A stretch of 64,000 bases of DNA. Origin: an uncultured Sphingomonadaceae bacterium. Its GTDB lineage: Bacteria; Pseudomonadota; Alphaproteobacteria; Sphingomonadales; Sphingomonadaceae. Position numbers and translations under genes: made by a program. This document shows positions 4,136-36,802 of this stretch, piece after piece (the first letter of the stretch is position 1; every line of letters begins with the position of its first letter). The stretch covers positions 62,001-126,000 of the forward strand of contig CALMVA010000025.1 of NCBI GenBank assembly GCA_937873035.1. Direction: 5' to 3'. The notes under the pieces are model-generated. The model ran no database searches, was not told where the DNA came from, and worked only from the letters and a program-made list of their open reading frames with translations.

Positions 4136-5035
4136 CTAGCGTTCTTCGGCGGGGTGTCCGTCGGGGTCGGGGTGGATGATGACTTCGGTGTTGGGGAACT
4201 CCGCCATCAGCTTGTCTTCCACCTCGTCCATCACACGATGCGCTTCGGCCACGGTCATATCGGCATCGACCCAGACGTGGAACTGGACGAAATCCTGGGT
4301 GCCGCTGGTGCGGGTGCGGAAATCATGGATGCCGCGCAGTTCGGGGTGCGATTCGGCGACGTGCAGGAAGCGGTCGCGCTTTTCGGGGGGCCATTCCTTG
4401 TCCATCAGCTGGTCGATCGCGTGGACGGCGACCTCGCGGGCGTGCCAGGCCAGCCACAGCGCGATGAAGACGCCGAATACAGGGTCTGCCCCGCGAATAC
4501 CCAGCACGGCATCAAGCAGCAGGGCGATGACGACCGAGCCGTTGAGCAACAGATCGCTGGTATAATGTGCGCTGTCTGCGGCGATCGCGACCGAGCCGGT
4601 CTGGCGCACGACATGGCGCTGATAGGCGACCAGCGCCAGCGTCGCGCAGATCGCAAAGAGCGACACGCCAATGCCGAGTTCGGGATTGGCGGGCTCCACG
4701 CCTGCGCCGATGCGTGCAATTGCCTGCCATGCGATGCCGATGGCCGAAGCGATGATGAGCCAGGTCTGGAACAGCGCGGCGAGCGCCTCTGCCTTGCCAT
4801 GGCCAAAGCCGTGCTGGTCATCGGCAGGTTCCGCCGCGAGCCGCACCGAAAAGAGCGTGACGAGCGAGGCGAGAATATCAAGCGCGGTATCGGCGAGCGA
4901 TCCGAGCACGGCGACCGAGCCTGTTTCCCACGCCGCCCAGATCTTGAGGCCGAGCAGTGACGCCGCCATCGCCACGCTCGCAAGTGCGGCGCGTGTCGTC
5001 AGGCTGGCGCGTTCATGATGCGGTCCGTGGGACAT
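4136..5035 (-). CDS. Cation diffusion facilitator (FieF-like metal/proton antiporter)
   Basis: A 299-residue inner-membrane exporter of divalent metals (Zn, Fe, Co or Cd). Six hydrophobic segments lie in residues 15-195. The paired metal-site motifs are present: Asp49 and Asp53 in SLADTALD (TM2) and His157 and Asp161 in AHYTSD (TM5), an arrangement like FieF. A C-terminal cytoplasmic metallochaperone-like domain follows (DFRTRTSGxxxFVQFHVWVD ... HPDPDG). It is 10 bp downstream of pdxH and probably cotranscribed with it. Confidence 0.9.
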   Translation of the reverse strand: MSHGPHHERASLTTRAALASVAMAASLLGLKIWAAWETGSVAVLGSLADTALDILASLVTLFSVRLAAEPADDQHGFGHGKAEALAALFQTWLIIASAIGIAWQAIARIGAGVEPANPELGIGVSLFAICATLALVAYQRHVVRQTGSVAIAADSAHYTSDLLLNGSVVIALLLDAVLGIRGADPVFGVFIALWLAWHAREVAVHAIDQLMDKEWPPEKRDRFLHVAESHPELRGIHDFRTRTSGTQDFVQFHVWVDADMTVAEAHRVMDEVEDKLMAEFPNTEVIIHPDPDGHPAEER

Positions 5036-5045
5036 TATGGTGCCG

Positions 5046-5621
5046 TCAGGGGTAGAGCAGGCCTTCGTCCCAGCCGCTCTCAGTGCGGATGAAGACGCGG
5101 CGATGGTGCAGGCGGTGGTCGCGGTCTTCCCAGAACTCCAGCCGGTTGGGCGTCACGCGATAGCCGCCCCAATGCGGCGGACGCGGCACATTATGGCCTT
5201 CATAGCGCGCGCGGACATCTTCAAAGCGGGCTTCAAAGGTCTCCCGGCGGTCAAGCGGGGCGGACTGGTCCGACGCCCAGGCTCCCAATTGGGAATCGCG
5301 CGCGCGCGACGCGAAATAGGCGTCTGCCTCTTGGGCCGTTACCGGGGACACCGGACCTTCGATGCGAATTTGCCGTCGCAGCGACTTCCAGTGGAAGAGC
5401 AAGGCGACATGGCCGTTTTCGTGCAGTTGCGCGGCCTTGCGGCTGTGGCCGTTGGTGTAGAACACAAAGCCGTGCGCATCGTGGCCTTTCAGTAACACCA
5501 TGCGCACACTGGGCTGGCCATCGGCCCCAACCGTTGCCAGCGCCATTGCGTTTGAATCATTGATTTCGCTGGCCCGCGCTTCCTTGAACCAGCTGTCGAA
5601 CAGGTCGAATGGATCGGTCAT
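5046..5621 (-). CDS. pdxH: Pyridoxamine/pyridoxine 5'-phosphate oxidase
   Basis: A 191-residue FMN enzyme that oxidises PNP or PMP to pyridoxal 5'-phosphate, the last step of B6 synthesis and salvage. Family signatures are present in order: AMxLATVGxDGxPSVRMVLLKG near the N-terminus, FYTNxxSRKAxQL, ALLFHWKSLxRQIRIEG, and the C-terminal WGGYRVxPxRxEFWxxRxxRLHxR block. The protein ends with the usual LYP, so it is complete. First gene of a likely two-gene unit with the downstream metal exporter. Confidence 0.95.
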   Translation of the reverse strand: MTDPFDLFDSWFKEARASEINDSNAMALATVGADGQPSVRMVLLKGHDAHGFVFYTNGHSRKAAQLHENGHVALLFHWKSLRRQIRIEGPVSPVTAQEADAYFASRARDSQLGAWASDQSAPLDRRETFEARFEDVRARYEGHNVPRPPHWGGYRVTPNRLEFWEDRDHRLHHRRVFIRTESGWDEGLLYP

Positions 5622-10772: not shown

Positions 10773-12056
10773 ATGAGCATCACCGCAAATTCCGCGACTG
10801 CTGAAAAGGCAGGTCAGTTGTTCCAGCAAGCTGTTGAGGCGCGACGGCAGGGCGATCTTGCACAGACAAAGCGCCTTTTGGATGAGGTGCTGGTGTTTGT
10901 TCCGGCGCAGCCTCAGGCGCTCAATATGCGGGCAATGCTGGCGCTCCAATCGGGCGATGCCGAAGCGGCGCTCAGTGACTTTGAGCGGGCGGTTGAGGCT
11001 GACCCCAACGAGCCGACATTGAGGATGAACATCGCCTCGGCGCAACGCGCACTTGGCGATGATGAGGGAGAGCGCCGCGCCTTGCAGCAGGCGATCGACA
11101 TCGATCAGCGCCAGATCATGGCGCAGCTGCGGCTGGCAGAACTGCAAGAGCGTCTCGATGAACGCCAGAATGCGTCAGACAGCTGGAGCAAGGTCGTTGC
11201 GCTTGTGGCAATGCTCGATACGGTTCCTCAGGGCCTCGCCGATGCCGCCGCGCATGGCCGCGCTTATGTGGAACAGCACCGCGCGCAATTTGCCGACAAG
11301 ATCGAGCAGGGGCTGATCACGGAGCTGGCCGACGCGGATGAAACCGCCAGACGGCGCTTTCAGGCGTGTCTTGACCGTGAGTTCGGGCGGCGAACGATTT
11401 ACGCCAATCAATGTTCGGGCATCCATTATCCCTTTCTACCGGCAGATGAATATTTTGATCGCAAACACTTCCCGTGGTTCGCGGAACTCGAAGCGCGCAC
11501 TGACGCCATTCGGCGGGAGTTTCTGGCGCTTTACGAAGGTGCCAAGGGCAATATTCGCCCCTATGTAAGTCAGGATCCCGGCACGCCGGAGAATAAATGG
11601 ACTGCGCTCAATGACTCGCTGGATTGGGGCGCCTGTTTTCTCTGGGAATATGGCGTGCGCAATGAGGCGGTATGTGCGCTTTGCCCTGAAACCGCAGCCG
11701 CAATTGATGCCATCCCGCGCGCGGACATTCCCGGCAGGGCCCCCTCGGCATTTTTTTCGCTCCTGAAACCGCACAGCCACATTCCGCCGCATACGGGCGT
11801 CACCAATACGCGCGCGATCATCCATCTGCCGCTGATCGTTCCGCCCGGCTGTGCCTTCCGTGTGGGTGGTGAAACCCGCGTGTGGGAAGAGGGCAAGGCC
11901 TTCGCCTTTGACGATTCAATCGACCATGAGGCCTGGAATAATAGCGACCAATTGCGCGTGATATTGATCCTTGATGTCTGGAATCCGCATTTGTCGGTTG
12001 CGGAGCAGCAGTTGTTGAGGCAGTTTTATGCGATTGCTGACGCCAACAGACAGTAG
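10773..12056 (+). CDS. TPR-containing aspartyl/asparaginyl beta-hydroxylase
   Basis: A 427-residue protein. Residues 10-140 form tetratricopeptide repeats (AGQLFQQAVEARRQGD..., AEAALSDFERAVEADPNEP...), and the C-terminal 200 residues are an Asp_Arg_Hydrox domain, an Fe(II)/2-oxoglutarate oxygenase. The iron ligands are probably His336 or His340 in HIPPHTG and His385 in DHEAWN, with an arginine in RVILILD for 2-oxoglutarate. Related enzymes hydroxylate Asp or Asn in proteins or small molecules. ATG 10773 is used because residues upstream are not TPR-like. A small exported protein gene follows 28 bp downstream. Confidence 0.85.
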   Translation: MSITANSATAEKAGQLFQQAVEARRQGDLAQTKRLLDEVLVFVPAQPQALNMRAMLALQSGDAEAALSDFERAVEADPNEPTLRMNIASAQRALGDDEGERRALQQAIDIDQRQIMAQLRLAELQERLDERQNASDSWSKVVALVAMLDTVPQGLADAAAHGRAYVEQHRAQFADKIEQGLITELADADETARRRFQACLDREFGRRTIYANQCSGIHYPFLPADEYFDRKHFPWFAELEARTDAIRREFLALYEGAKGNIRPYVSQDPGTPENKWTALNDSLDWGACFLWEYGVRNEAVCALCPETAAAIDAIPRADIPGRAPSAFFSLLKPHSHIPPHTGVTNTRAIIHLPLIVPPGCAFRVGGETRVWEEGKAFAFDDSIDHEAWNNSDQLRVILILDVWNPHLSVAEQQLLRQFYAIADANRQ

Positions 12057-32066: not shown

Positions 32067-33703
32067 TCACTGGCGCTTGGCCTTGGGCGCGTCGGGCGCG
32101 AAGACTTTGCCAAAGAAGCTGTCAGAATACCATTTGGGCGCTTCGGGGGCGTTGGCGATTTCGGTTGCGATCAGCGTGTTGATGTGCGCGAACTTTGCGC
32201 CGGAATTCCAGTCAAACGGCAGGTTCAGGTCGTCCGACACGCGGTGGTAATGCGTTTTCAAAAAGTCGGTAAAGGCCGCCGCCCCGCCATTTGCATGGCC
32301 CGTGACGAGAAACACCGAGGGGATACCCCGTTGCACGAACCGATAATGGTCAGACCGGGTGAAGAGGCCCTCTTCGGGCATGGGGTCGGGCGAGAGCTTC
32401 ACATTGTCCTTGGCGGTGGCCGCAGCGACGATGGGGCCAAGCGTTGAATGTTCCGCGCCAAAGGCAATCACATCGCTGAAATCATAGGTCAGGATCGGCA
32501 TATCGAGATTGACGACGCCCACCACTTTGCCGCTGCCAACGACGGGGAAGCGTGAGAGATAATCTGCGCCCAGCAGGCCTTTTTCTTCAGCCGTCACGGC
32601 GGCGAACAGCACCGGGCGGCGGGGACGCTCTGGTGCAGCGGCCATGGCGCGTGCCGCTTCCAGCATGGTGGCGATGCCAACCGCATTGTCCATTGCGCCG
32701 TTGTTGATGCGGTCCGCCTTGTCGTCGGTGCGCAGCCCGATATGGTCGAGATGGCCCATTACCAGCACATATTCATTGGCGAGTGCGGGGTCGGACCCCG
32801 GCAGAAGCCCCACGACATTGGGACTGGTGAAGTGTGAGAGCGTTGCCGTGCGGCTGATGACGGCGGTCTTCTTGATGGCAAAGGCCTTGGGTTGACCACC
32901 CTTCTGGTCGGCGAGTTGAAGAATGTCGTCAAGCGTGCGCCCGGTGCCCGCGAACAGTGCTTCCGCCGCAGGCCGGTCAAGCGTGGCCGATGCGCGGATA
33001 TTGGGTGAGCTGTCGAAGATGGAGCCATCGGCATTGGACCAGCGGACCGAGCGATTGTCCGCAAATTCGATGACGCGCGCCCATGGCGTCTGCTTTTCGC
33101 GTTCCAGCGTGCGGATCGAGATGAGCCCGATGGCGCCGCGCTGTGAAAGGACTTTCGCCTTCTCGGCATTGAGATGCGCGCCGATGTCGCTGGCCACGCC
33201 CTTGGGGAAGCCGCTCAGGCAGGCGACGATCTTGCCCTTGACGTTCAGGCCTGAAAGCCCGCGCAGGCCAAGCTCTGGCCGGTCGATGCAGAAGCCGCCA
33301 AACACGACCTCGCCTTCCACGCGCTCGCCGCCTTTGGGGCCACCGCCGGACACAATAGCGTCCTTCTTATGCGCAAAGCTTGTGCCGCCAATCGTGAGCA
33401 CCGCATCGGCATTGGGCTTGATCTCGACAAAGGGCACCTGCTGAAACCAGCCGCCATTCACGGCGGGTTTGAGACCCATGCTGTCAAAGCGGGTCGCGAC
33501 ATAACGCGCGGCAATCTCGTGCCCGCGTGAGCCGGTGTCGCGGCCTTCCAGCAGGTCGTCCGCCAGAAACTCAACGTGCGCGCGCACCGCATCGGCGGTG
33601 ATGGGGTTTGCAGGCGGCGTTTGCGCCAGCGCGGCGACGGGGAGGAGCGACAGAAGGCGACGGGGAGGAGCGACAGAAGAGGCAATAGGGCAAGAGCGCG
33701 CAT
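32067..33703 (-). CDS. M28 family metallopeptidase, frameshifted in its signal peptide
   Basis: The body encodes a zinc exopeptidase with a PA-type insertion. Likely metal ligands are in GHLDHIG, NGAMDNAVG, VTAEEKGLLGA, VNLDMP and SDHYRFVQRGIP. A good signal peptide begins at ATG 33703 (MRALALLPLLSLLPVA) but lies in a different frame: the 23 bases 33634-33656 are repeated at 33657-33679. With one copy removed the reading is ...LLPVAALAQTPPANP..., an intact 537-residue exported peptidase. As written, translation from ATG 33703 stops near 33458 after about 81 residues. No good alternative start is seen in the body frame. It diverges from an exported M16 peptidase. Confidence 0.8.
33634..33679. 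repeat. 23-bp perfect tandem duplication in the M28 signal-peptide region
   Basis: Two identical adjacent copies, 33634-33656 and 33657-33679, each beginning GCGACGGGGAGG and ending GCGACAGAAG. As 23 is not a multiple of three, the copy number sets the reading frame of the peptidase gene. Confidence 0.95.
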
Positions 33704-33910
33704 GGAGTGATCCGCTTGATAAAGATGGCGCTGCCTTGCCGATTGCGCAGGCAGCGTCAATCGCAGCGGGCCTTGTGAGCGGATGATTTCGGTCGTTCGT
33801 CCGCGTGCGTTGGTCGTTCATCGAAAATCGCGGCCTGATCGTCGCGCCCGTTGCGCGAGCCGTGCACCGCATTAGAACATCCCGATCATTTTCCAGCCCA
33901 AGGACAGTCC

Positions 33911-36802
33911 ATGCGTATTTTTGCTCTCGCGCTTCTTGCCAGCACGGTGATGGTGTCTCCCGCTGTCGCCCAGCAGATCGGCAAGCCGACACCGGTTTCT
34001 TCGCTCGTTAAGCAGGTCAACATCCCGCACGAACAATTCACGCTTGCCAATGGCCTGCGCGTTATCGTTCACACCGACCGCAAGGCCCCGGTGGTTGCGG
34101 TTTCAGTGTGGTATGATGTTGGCTCCAAGCATGAGCCCAAGGGAAAGACGGGCTTTGCCCATCTGTTTGAGCATCTGATGTTCAACGGCTCGGAAAACGC
34201 CGATGGCGACTTCTTCACGCCGCTCCAGAATATGGGTGCGACCGACTTTAACGGCACGACCTGGTTTGACCGCACCAATTATTTCGAAACCGTCCCCAAG
34301 GGCGCGCTGGAACGCGCGTTGTTCCTCGAAAGCGACCGTATGGGCCATCTGCTTGGCGCCGTGACGCAAGACAAGCTGAGCAACCAGATTGGCGTCGTGC
34401 AGAATGAAAAGCGTCAGGGCGACAACCAGCCTTACGGCCTTGTTGAATATGCGCAGTTGAAGGGCACTGTGCCGGCGGACCATCCTTACGGCCATTCGAC
34501 CATCGGCTCGATGGCTGATCTTGATGCCGCGAGCCTTGAGGATGTGAAGAACTGGTTCCGTGCGCATTACGGGCCCAACAACGCCGTGCTGGTGCTCGCA
34601 GGGGACATCGACGCCAAAGCGGCAAAGCCGCTCGTCGAGAAGTGGTTTGGCGATATTCCGGCAGGCCCCAGGCAGGCACGTCTTACGGTGGCGGTGCCGA
34701 CGCTTGATGCGCCCAGGTCTGAAGTGATGAAGGACAATGTGGCAACGACGCGCCACTATCGCTACTGGGCGGTGCCCGGCATCGACAGCACCGATGCAGT
34801 GCCCCTGAAGGTGGCGGCGACGGTGCTGGGAGGCCTTGCCAGCTCGCGGCTCGACAATGCGCTTGTGCGGGGCGAGAAGCTCGCGGTTGCGGTGACGGCG
34901 AGCTATCAGGATTTTGCGCAGCTCGGCTGGGTTGAAGTGACGGCGGATGTCCGCCCCGGCGTTGATTCCGCGCTTGTTGCCAAGCGGCTCGACGAGATTC
35001 TGGCAGACTTCATCAAGACCGGGCCCACGGCGGACGAAGTGCGCCGCGTGGCGACGCGCGCGGTGGCCGAGCGGATCGACGGGCTGGAGCAGGTTGGCGG
35101 CTTCGGCGGCAAGGCCGTCGCGCTGGCGGAGGGTGAGCTGTATCGCGACGATGCCGACGCCTATAAGAAAGACTTGGTCGCGCTGTCGAAGGTCAAGCCT
35201 GCCGAAGTCACCAAGGCAATGCAAAAGTGGCTGACGCGCCCGGTTTACGCGCTCACGGTGGTTCCCGGCGAGCGCGAGGCCTATCAGGAATCGGGTTCGG
35301 TCAAGCCGGGCGGGGCAACGCAGGCACCCTCATATTATCGTGCACCCCAGGCGGGTGAACAGCCGCTGGCGCCGCCCGCGCGTGTCGGTGCGGAGGAAAT
35401 GCAGGCCGGTGCCTCCGGCCCGCTTGCGGCTGCCGACCGCTCGAAACTGCCCGATGTCGGCGCGATTGCCGATCTCGACTTCCCGACGGTGGAGCGCGCC
35501 AAGCTCTCGAACGGGGTTCCGATCGTCTATGTCCAGCGCAATGCCGTGCCGATGACGCAAGTCTCGGTCAGCTTCGATGCCGGCAATGCGGCGGACCCGC
35601 GCGACCGGCTGGGCACGCAGTCCTTCATGCTTTCGCTGCTCGATGAAGGTGCGGCCGGGATGACGTCGGTCCAGATCGCGGAAGCGCAGGAGCGTCTTGG
35701 TGCGACGATCGGCTCAGGCGCGTCAATGGACCGGACCACGGTCAATCTCTCGGCGTTGTCGGCCAATCTCGATCCGTCGTTGGCGCTGCTTGCCGATGTG
35801 GTGCTCAAGCCTGATTTTGCGCCCGCTGAGGTGGAGCGGCTGCGCAGCCAGCAACTGGCGCGTATCCAATCTGAACTGAAAGCGCCGCAGAGCATCGCTC
35901 TGCGCACGCTGCCGCCGCTGCTGTTTGGCAACCAGCATCCTTATGGCGTGTCGTTTACCGGCACGGGCGATGCCGCGACGGTCGCCTCGGTGACGCGCGA
36001 CGAGCTGGTCGGCTTCCATCACAAATGGCTGCGGCCCGAAAAGGCGACGATCTTCGTCGTGAGCGATCAGCCGCTGGCGAAGATCGTGAAGACGCTCGAT
36101 GCCAAGTTCGGCAAATGGCCGGTGACGGGCGCAGCAGGCACCAAGGCGGAAGGCGGTCCCGTTCCCGCCGCGCAGCCGAGGATCGTGCTCGTGGATCGCC
36201 CGGATTCGCCGCAATCCTATATTCTGGCCGGGCAAGTCCTGCCGAAAAAGGGCACCGATGACATTGAAACCCTGATTACGGCGAACCAGGCGGTGGGCGC
36301 AGGCTTCCTCTCGCGCATCAACATGGATCTGCGCGAGACGCGGGGCTGGTCTTATGGCGTGCGCGGTTCGATCAACCGTGTTGCAGGCGATGTGCCCTAT
36401 ATCGTCTATGCCCCCGTGCAGGCGGACCGGACGGGCGAATCGATTGCCGCGCTTCGGGCTGATTATAAGGAATTCCTGACGAGCAAGGGCGTGACGGATG
36501 AAGAACGCACCCGGATCGTCAACGGAAACGTGCTTGAGCTTCCGGGCAGCTACGAAACGTCGGACGCGGTGCTGGGGGCCATCCAGCGCAATGCACTCTA
36601 CAAGCGGTCGGATGATTTCTACGATTCCCTAGCGTCACGCTATCGCGGCATGACGCGTGGGCAGCTTGATGCCGCAATCCGCGCCGTGCTCAACCCCGAT
36701 CAGTTTTTGTGGGTCGTGGTGGGTGATGCAAAAATTGTGCGTCCGCAGCTTGAAAAACTCGGCCTTCCGATTGAACAACTGTCAGCAACCGCGGGCAAAT
36801 GA
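33911..36802 (+). CDS. Exported M16 family zinc peptidase, two-domain
   Basis: A 963-residue periplasmic protein: signal peptide (MRIFALALLASTVMVSPAVAQ), then the first M16 domain with the inverted zinc motif HLFEH (His84, Glu87, His88) and the third ligand Glu166 in QNEKRQG. A second M16-like half starts near residue 530 (LSNGVPIVYVQRNAVPMTQVSVSFDAGN) without an HxxEH motif and should be the inactive partner of the clamshell. R/Y residues of the substrate pocket near RETRGWSYGVRG are present. ATG 33911 follows AGGACAG. The 207-bp spacer to the M28 gene holds nothing else recognisable. Confidence 0.93.
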   Translation: MRIFALALLASTVMVSPAVAQQIGKPTPVSSLVKQVNIPHEQFTLANGLRVIVHTDRKAPVVAVSVWYDVGSKHEPKGKTGFAHLFEHLMFNGSENADGDFFTPLQNMGATDFNGTTWFDRTNYFETVPKGALERALFLESDRMGHLLGAVTQDKLSNQIGVVQNEKRQGDNQPYGLVEYAQLKGTVPADHPYGHSTIGSMADLDAASLEDVKNWFRAHYGPNNAVLVLAGDIDAKAAKPLVEKWFGDIPAGPRQARLTVAVPTLDAPRSEVMKDNVATTRHYRYWAVPGIDSTDAVPLKVAATVLGGLASSRLDNALVRGEKLAVAVTASYQDFAQLGWVEVTADVRPGVDSALVAKRLDEILADFIKTGPTADEVRRVATRAVAERIDGLEQVGGFGGKAVALAEGELYRDDADAYKKDLVALSKVKPAEVTKAMQKWLTRPVYALTVVPGEREAYQESGSVKPGGATQAPSYYRAPQAGEQPLAPPARVGAEEMQAGASGPLAAADRSKLPDVGAIADLDFPTVERAKLSNGVPIVYVQRNAVPMTQVSVSFDAGNAADPRDRLGTQSFMLSLLDEGAAGMTSVQIAEAQERLGATIGSGASMDRTTVNLSALSANLDPSLALLADVVLKPDFAPAEVERLRSQQLARIQSELKAPQSIALRTLPPLLFGNQHPYGVSFTGTGDAATVASVTRDELVGFHHKWLRPEKATIFVVSDQPLAKIVKTLDAKFGKWPVTGAAGTKAEGGPVPAAQPRIVLVDRPDSPQSYILAGQVLPKKGTDDIETLITANQAVGAGFLSRINMDLRETRGWSYGVRGSINRVAGDVPYIVYAPVQADRTGESIAALRADYKEFLTSKGVTDEERTRIVNGNVLELPGSYETSDAVLGAIQRNALYKRSDDFYDSLASRYRGMTRGQLDAAIRAVLNPDQFLWVVVGDAKIVRPQLEKLGLPIEQLSATAGK

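Follow-up and report, generated by a model that had tools for sequence, protein, structure and literature searches.

A 23-bp tandem duplication puts an M28-family metallopeptidase gene out of frame with its own start codon in a Sphingomonadaceae genome

Introduction

Simple-sequence-repeat contingency loci typically consist of many short units and are maintained across strains. Phase variation at such loci proceeds by a slipped-strand mechanism (PMC12817950). Spontaneous and reversible duplications inside open reading frames have also been described, at the pneumococcal type 3 capsule locus, cap8E/wchA and tts (Waite et al. 2001, 2003, as these studies are cited in PMC4022640 and PMC4243769).

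Here we analyze a locus that resembles both systems in part, located in a 64-kb stretch of DNA (the window) from an uncultured freshwater Sphingomonadaceae bacterium. As in the contingency loci, a change in repeat number moves the gene in or out of frame; in contrast to them, the locus has a 23-mer that is present twice in a single lineage, with no such doubling in its relatives. As in the pneumococcal capsule genes, a short random tandem duplication inactivates an open reading frame and could in principle be lost precisely. However, the pneumococcal duplication is reported to be reversible and tied to a phenotype, whereas the one described here concerns an exported peptidase known from one sequence. 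The encoded mature enzyme matches the M28 zinc metallopeptidases (PF04389), its nearest solved relatives by sequence being bacterial leucyl aminopeptidases such as 1RTQ and 1AMP, but unlike in that family the host assembly places the start codon in a different frame from the enzyme.

Results

The duplication sits where an M28-family metallopeptidase gene, read on the minus strand from ATG 33703, encodes its signal peptide (Table 1). Followed from that position, the minus strand runs through ATGCGCGCTCTTGCCCTATTGCCTC, then through the two exact copies (33678-33656 and 33655-33633, with 1 additional matching base at 33679) and on into GCGCTGGCGCAAACG. TRF assigns the array a period of 23, 2.04 copies and 100% matches, and it is the sole exact array among the TRF reports for the window. 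The first-pass annotation had described two perfect adjacent copies in this signal peptide; the positions it gave, and the signal peptide it derived for a single copy (ending in LLPVAALAQ), are accurate to one base. Random sequence of 64 kb would contain an exact 23-bp tandem about 1e-9 times (64000 x 4^-23), and a chance origin of the duplication is not plausible. A search of 99 further genomes from the family gave 1 match to the 23-mer, with 2 mismatches. Microhomology at the unit ends amounts, by inspection, to just 1 bp. Hairpin-driven slippage was considered as a source of the duplication and rejected, since the DNA of the locus folds no better than shuffled sequences and forms no notable hairpin. 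Elsewhere in the window, TRF reports a 22-bp tandem at 10916-10960, which is imperfect (82% matches).

Table 1. Features of the M28 locus, in window coordinates
Feature	Position	Strand	Basis
Frame of the mature M28-family metallopeptidase, without damage but shifted relative to its own start codon	32067..33625	minus	PF04389, open frame, pN/pS
Frame opened by the conserved ATG in the assembly: 81 aa (MRALALLPLLSLLPVAFCRSSPSPRWRKRR...), stop 33460-33458, truncated product	33458..33703	minus	Translation
Exact tandem duplication, 2 units of TTCTGTCGCTCCTCCCCGTCGCC	33633..33679	minus	TRF and exact coordinates
TTGACG, probable -35 element of the M28 promoter	33755..33760	minus	Invariant in 10/10 aligned upstream regions
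Divergent neighbour gene, putative M16-type peptidase by HxxEH-type motif	33912..36802	plus	ORF list

The unit length leaves a remainder on division by three (23 mod 3 = 2), which breaks the reading frame, and the shift occurs after 'MRALALLPLLSLLPVA'. With one copy, ATG 33703 would open MRALALLPLLSLLPVAALAQ and then the entire peptidase, a product of 537 aa comprising a short signal peptide (MRALALLPLLSLLPVAALA-Q) and the M28 peptidase domain. As assembled, the frame of the same ATG stops after 81 residues, which bears out the earlier claim that the signal peptide is out of frame. The peptidase belongs to the M28 family by its match to Pfam PF04389 (E=5.4e-39, 134.4 bits vs a curated cut-off of 21.3); the NCBIfam equivalog models all scored under cut-off.

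No stop codon interrupts the peptidase frame across the duplication, and the frame is still open 387 nt 5' of the matched region. It is conceivable from this openness that the gene is still functional, with translation starting at GTG 33992, ATG 33872 or ATG 33821 (the nearest upstream ATG), with ...PPRRLLSLLPVAALAQ acting as a long-N-region signal peptide and with the second copy keeping RR-LLSLLPVAALAQ in frame. We give this reading very little credence. All three starts are located 5' of the invariant TTGACG element and were rejected on account of that position; in addition, GTG 33992 is antisense within the divergent M16-like gene, ATG 33872 falls just 40 bp ahead of that gene's start, and none of the genus relatives requires a start of this kind, as in each of them the conserved element is directly followed by a short MR... 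signal peptide. Between this element and the duplication, the peptidase frame contains no ATG, GTG or TTG, and the gene is therefore not expected to give a normal secreted product. The first start downstream of the duplication is GTG 33587, from which the enzyme is encoded without a signal peptide. Ribosomal frameshifting was likewise tried and rejected: a -1 shift would bring the peptidase back into frame, yet inspection of the zero-frame codons around the duplication revealed no canonical X XXY YYZ heptamer. Judged from the arrangement of frames and starts, the secreted enzyme has likely been lost as a result of the duplication, although some leaky product could still be made through a non-standard start or frameshifting.

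The ORF list contains an intact ORF of 641 aa from GTG 33992, and the locus is a case in which gene callers may report this protein as intact with a spurious N-terminus. In such an annotation, the ~120 residues ahead of the mature enzyme would be mostly spurious and would mask the frameshift. At its 5' end the peptidase frame, open over 32067-33992 on the minus strand, overlaps the beginning of the divergent M16-like gene in antisense. Homologues of this neighbour lie divergently beside the M28 orthologue at three genus loci (L028, L031, L033) and at three more distant loci (L036, L037, L038). Relatives also share a GCAA(G/C) motif at most about 25 bases after TTGACG, and we infer that the two motifs together form the promoter sequence of the M28 gene; a generic sigma-70 scan gave no full promoter match.

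Orthologues were taken from same-genus genomes and from named genomes, with one genome per species. The named close relatives include Sphingomonadales MAGs and Chakrabartia godavariana PRB40, a strain since reclassified in Aquisediminimonas (PMC12210278). The comparison with orthologues that the first-pass annotation had suggested was run on this set, and a single copy is present in all nine same-genus orthologues (70-79% aa identity), in which start codon, MR... signal peptide and mature enzyme share one frame. Their TTGACG elements are identical to that of the window, and in the alignment the extra bases of the window form a private insertion. The duplication is therefore the derived state. 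Among the more distant orthologues that were inspected, none carries the doubled segment, and at one genome per species no variation in copy number was seen at the site among relatives, apart from the host genome itself.

Beyond the duplication, the gene is in good order. The mature peptidase frame has zero internal stops, and its pairwise pN/pS against eight orthologues (0.14-0.18/0.55-0.61) falls in the range of intact orthologue pairs at similar distance. This is the pattern of a recent pseudogene, in which the orthologues are intact and single-copy and there has been little further decay. Because the two copies are identical and the mature frame is undamaged, the duplication appears to be either recent or confined to the assembly, an age that is read from copy identity and the absence of further damage rather than from dated strains. 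The proposal of a recent inactivating mutation, already made in the first-pass annotation, is thus well supported by the single-copy state of the genus orthologues, by the lack of a conventional in-frame start and by the undamaged remainder of the gene.

A survey for exact tandem arrays (unit 10-300 bp) covered 1.93 Mb, about 70% of the host genome. It found 13 arrays, nine of them with a unit that is a multiple of three, as would follow if arrays that break the frame are normally purged; the four others are the 23-bp duplication and arrays with units of 104, 14 and 101 bp. The 23-bp duplication is the sole exact tandem (unit of at least 10 bp) seen to break a conserved gene in the 1.93 Mb, and use of such repeats as a genome-wide regulatory device was not seen in the sequence surveyed. 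The 104-bp array (2.87 copies; L162:1-298, G000:C29) lies at the extreme end of a contig, where it probably broke the assembly, and the true array may be longer. The 14-bp tandem (2.57 copies; L178:5948-5983, G000:C45) adjoins CCAGCGAAGGCTGG-type repeat sequence in a region with no evident conserved gene, and the 101-bp exact tandem (2.26 copies; L216:5094-5321, G000:C83) is found a few bases 3' of a tRNA-Leu (taa) at 5004-5089.

These data also bear on whether the second copy could be a local assembly error, in which two contig ends that overlap by 23 bp were abutted, so that the true chromosome has one copy. The draft genome is in 94 contigs, deleting one copy gives back an ideal gene and nothing else in the gene is damaged, as such an error would produce. 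However, the site lies deep inside a 135-kb contig, a genome-wide search placed the 23-mer at this single locus, and no comparable exact duplication breaks another conserved gene in the sequence surveyed, so that we consider an error of this kind unlikely. Moreover, there were no true frameshifts among 173 orthologue pairs with genome G001, two apparent cases being dismissed as annotation effects (in one the query was over-extended, in the other an antisense ORF was spurious). Together with the status of the duplication as the sole gene-breaking repeat, this argues against a generally poor assembly.

A different account of the same repeat is an evolved phase-variation switch, in which a slippage-prone tract is kept in the signal peptide and cells alternate between secreting and non-secreting states. 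Such a switch would profit from copies that are perfect and adjacent and from a unit that is not a multiple of three, as a change in repeat number alters the frame here just as it does in phase-variable loci, and pneumococcal capsule expression is controlled by spontaneous reversible duplications in the accounts given in PMC4022640 and PMC4243769. We nevertheless regard an evolved switch as very unlikely, since a second copy is present at the site in no relative, there are just two copies rather than a longer array, no similar frame-breaking tandem occurs in the other conserved genes sampled and a notable DNA hairpin is absent. The reversible on/off switch raised in the first-pass annotation consequently survives in one respect, as perfect copies could be lost by slippage, while the relatives and the sampled conserved genes speak against the switch itself. 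That slippage between one and two copies might generate secreting and non-secreting cells, as a bet on sharing a public-good enzyme, can be given scarcely any weight.

Discussion

The duplication, known from one assembly at the level of sequence, is real in sequence, ordinary in kind and a mutation of one lineage. We think it likely that it represents a one-off, recent loss of function that is potentially revertible. In this model, a spontaneous 23-bp tandem duplication, probably produced by replication slippage or template switching, would have arisen recently in the strain or species. The resulting shift in the signal-peptide codons would cause the conserved ATG to yield an 81-aa dead product, with little or no secreted enzyme. 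Precise reversion is possible in principle because the copies are exact and adjacent, and the loss of one copy might restore the gene at low frequency. By analogy, the host locus would work, at most, like the pneumococcal capsule duplications, with which it shares the type of lesion. If real, it would illustrate cleanly how an exported enzyme can be knocked out in a potentially reversible way, and if copy number proves to be mixed in natural populations it would become a test case for the loss and regain of a secreted enzyme.

The distribution of M28 genes fits such a loss. One complete genus genome, G003, has no match to the M28 gene and G012 contains a 32% relative only, while the host genome encodes two distant M28 paralogues whose signal peptides are intact; this pattern suggests that the M28 gene is dispensable.
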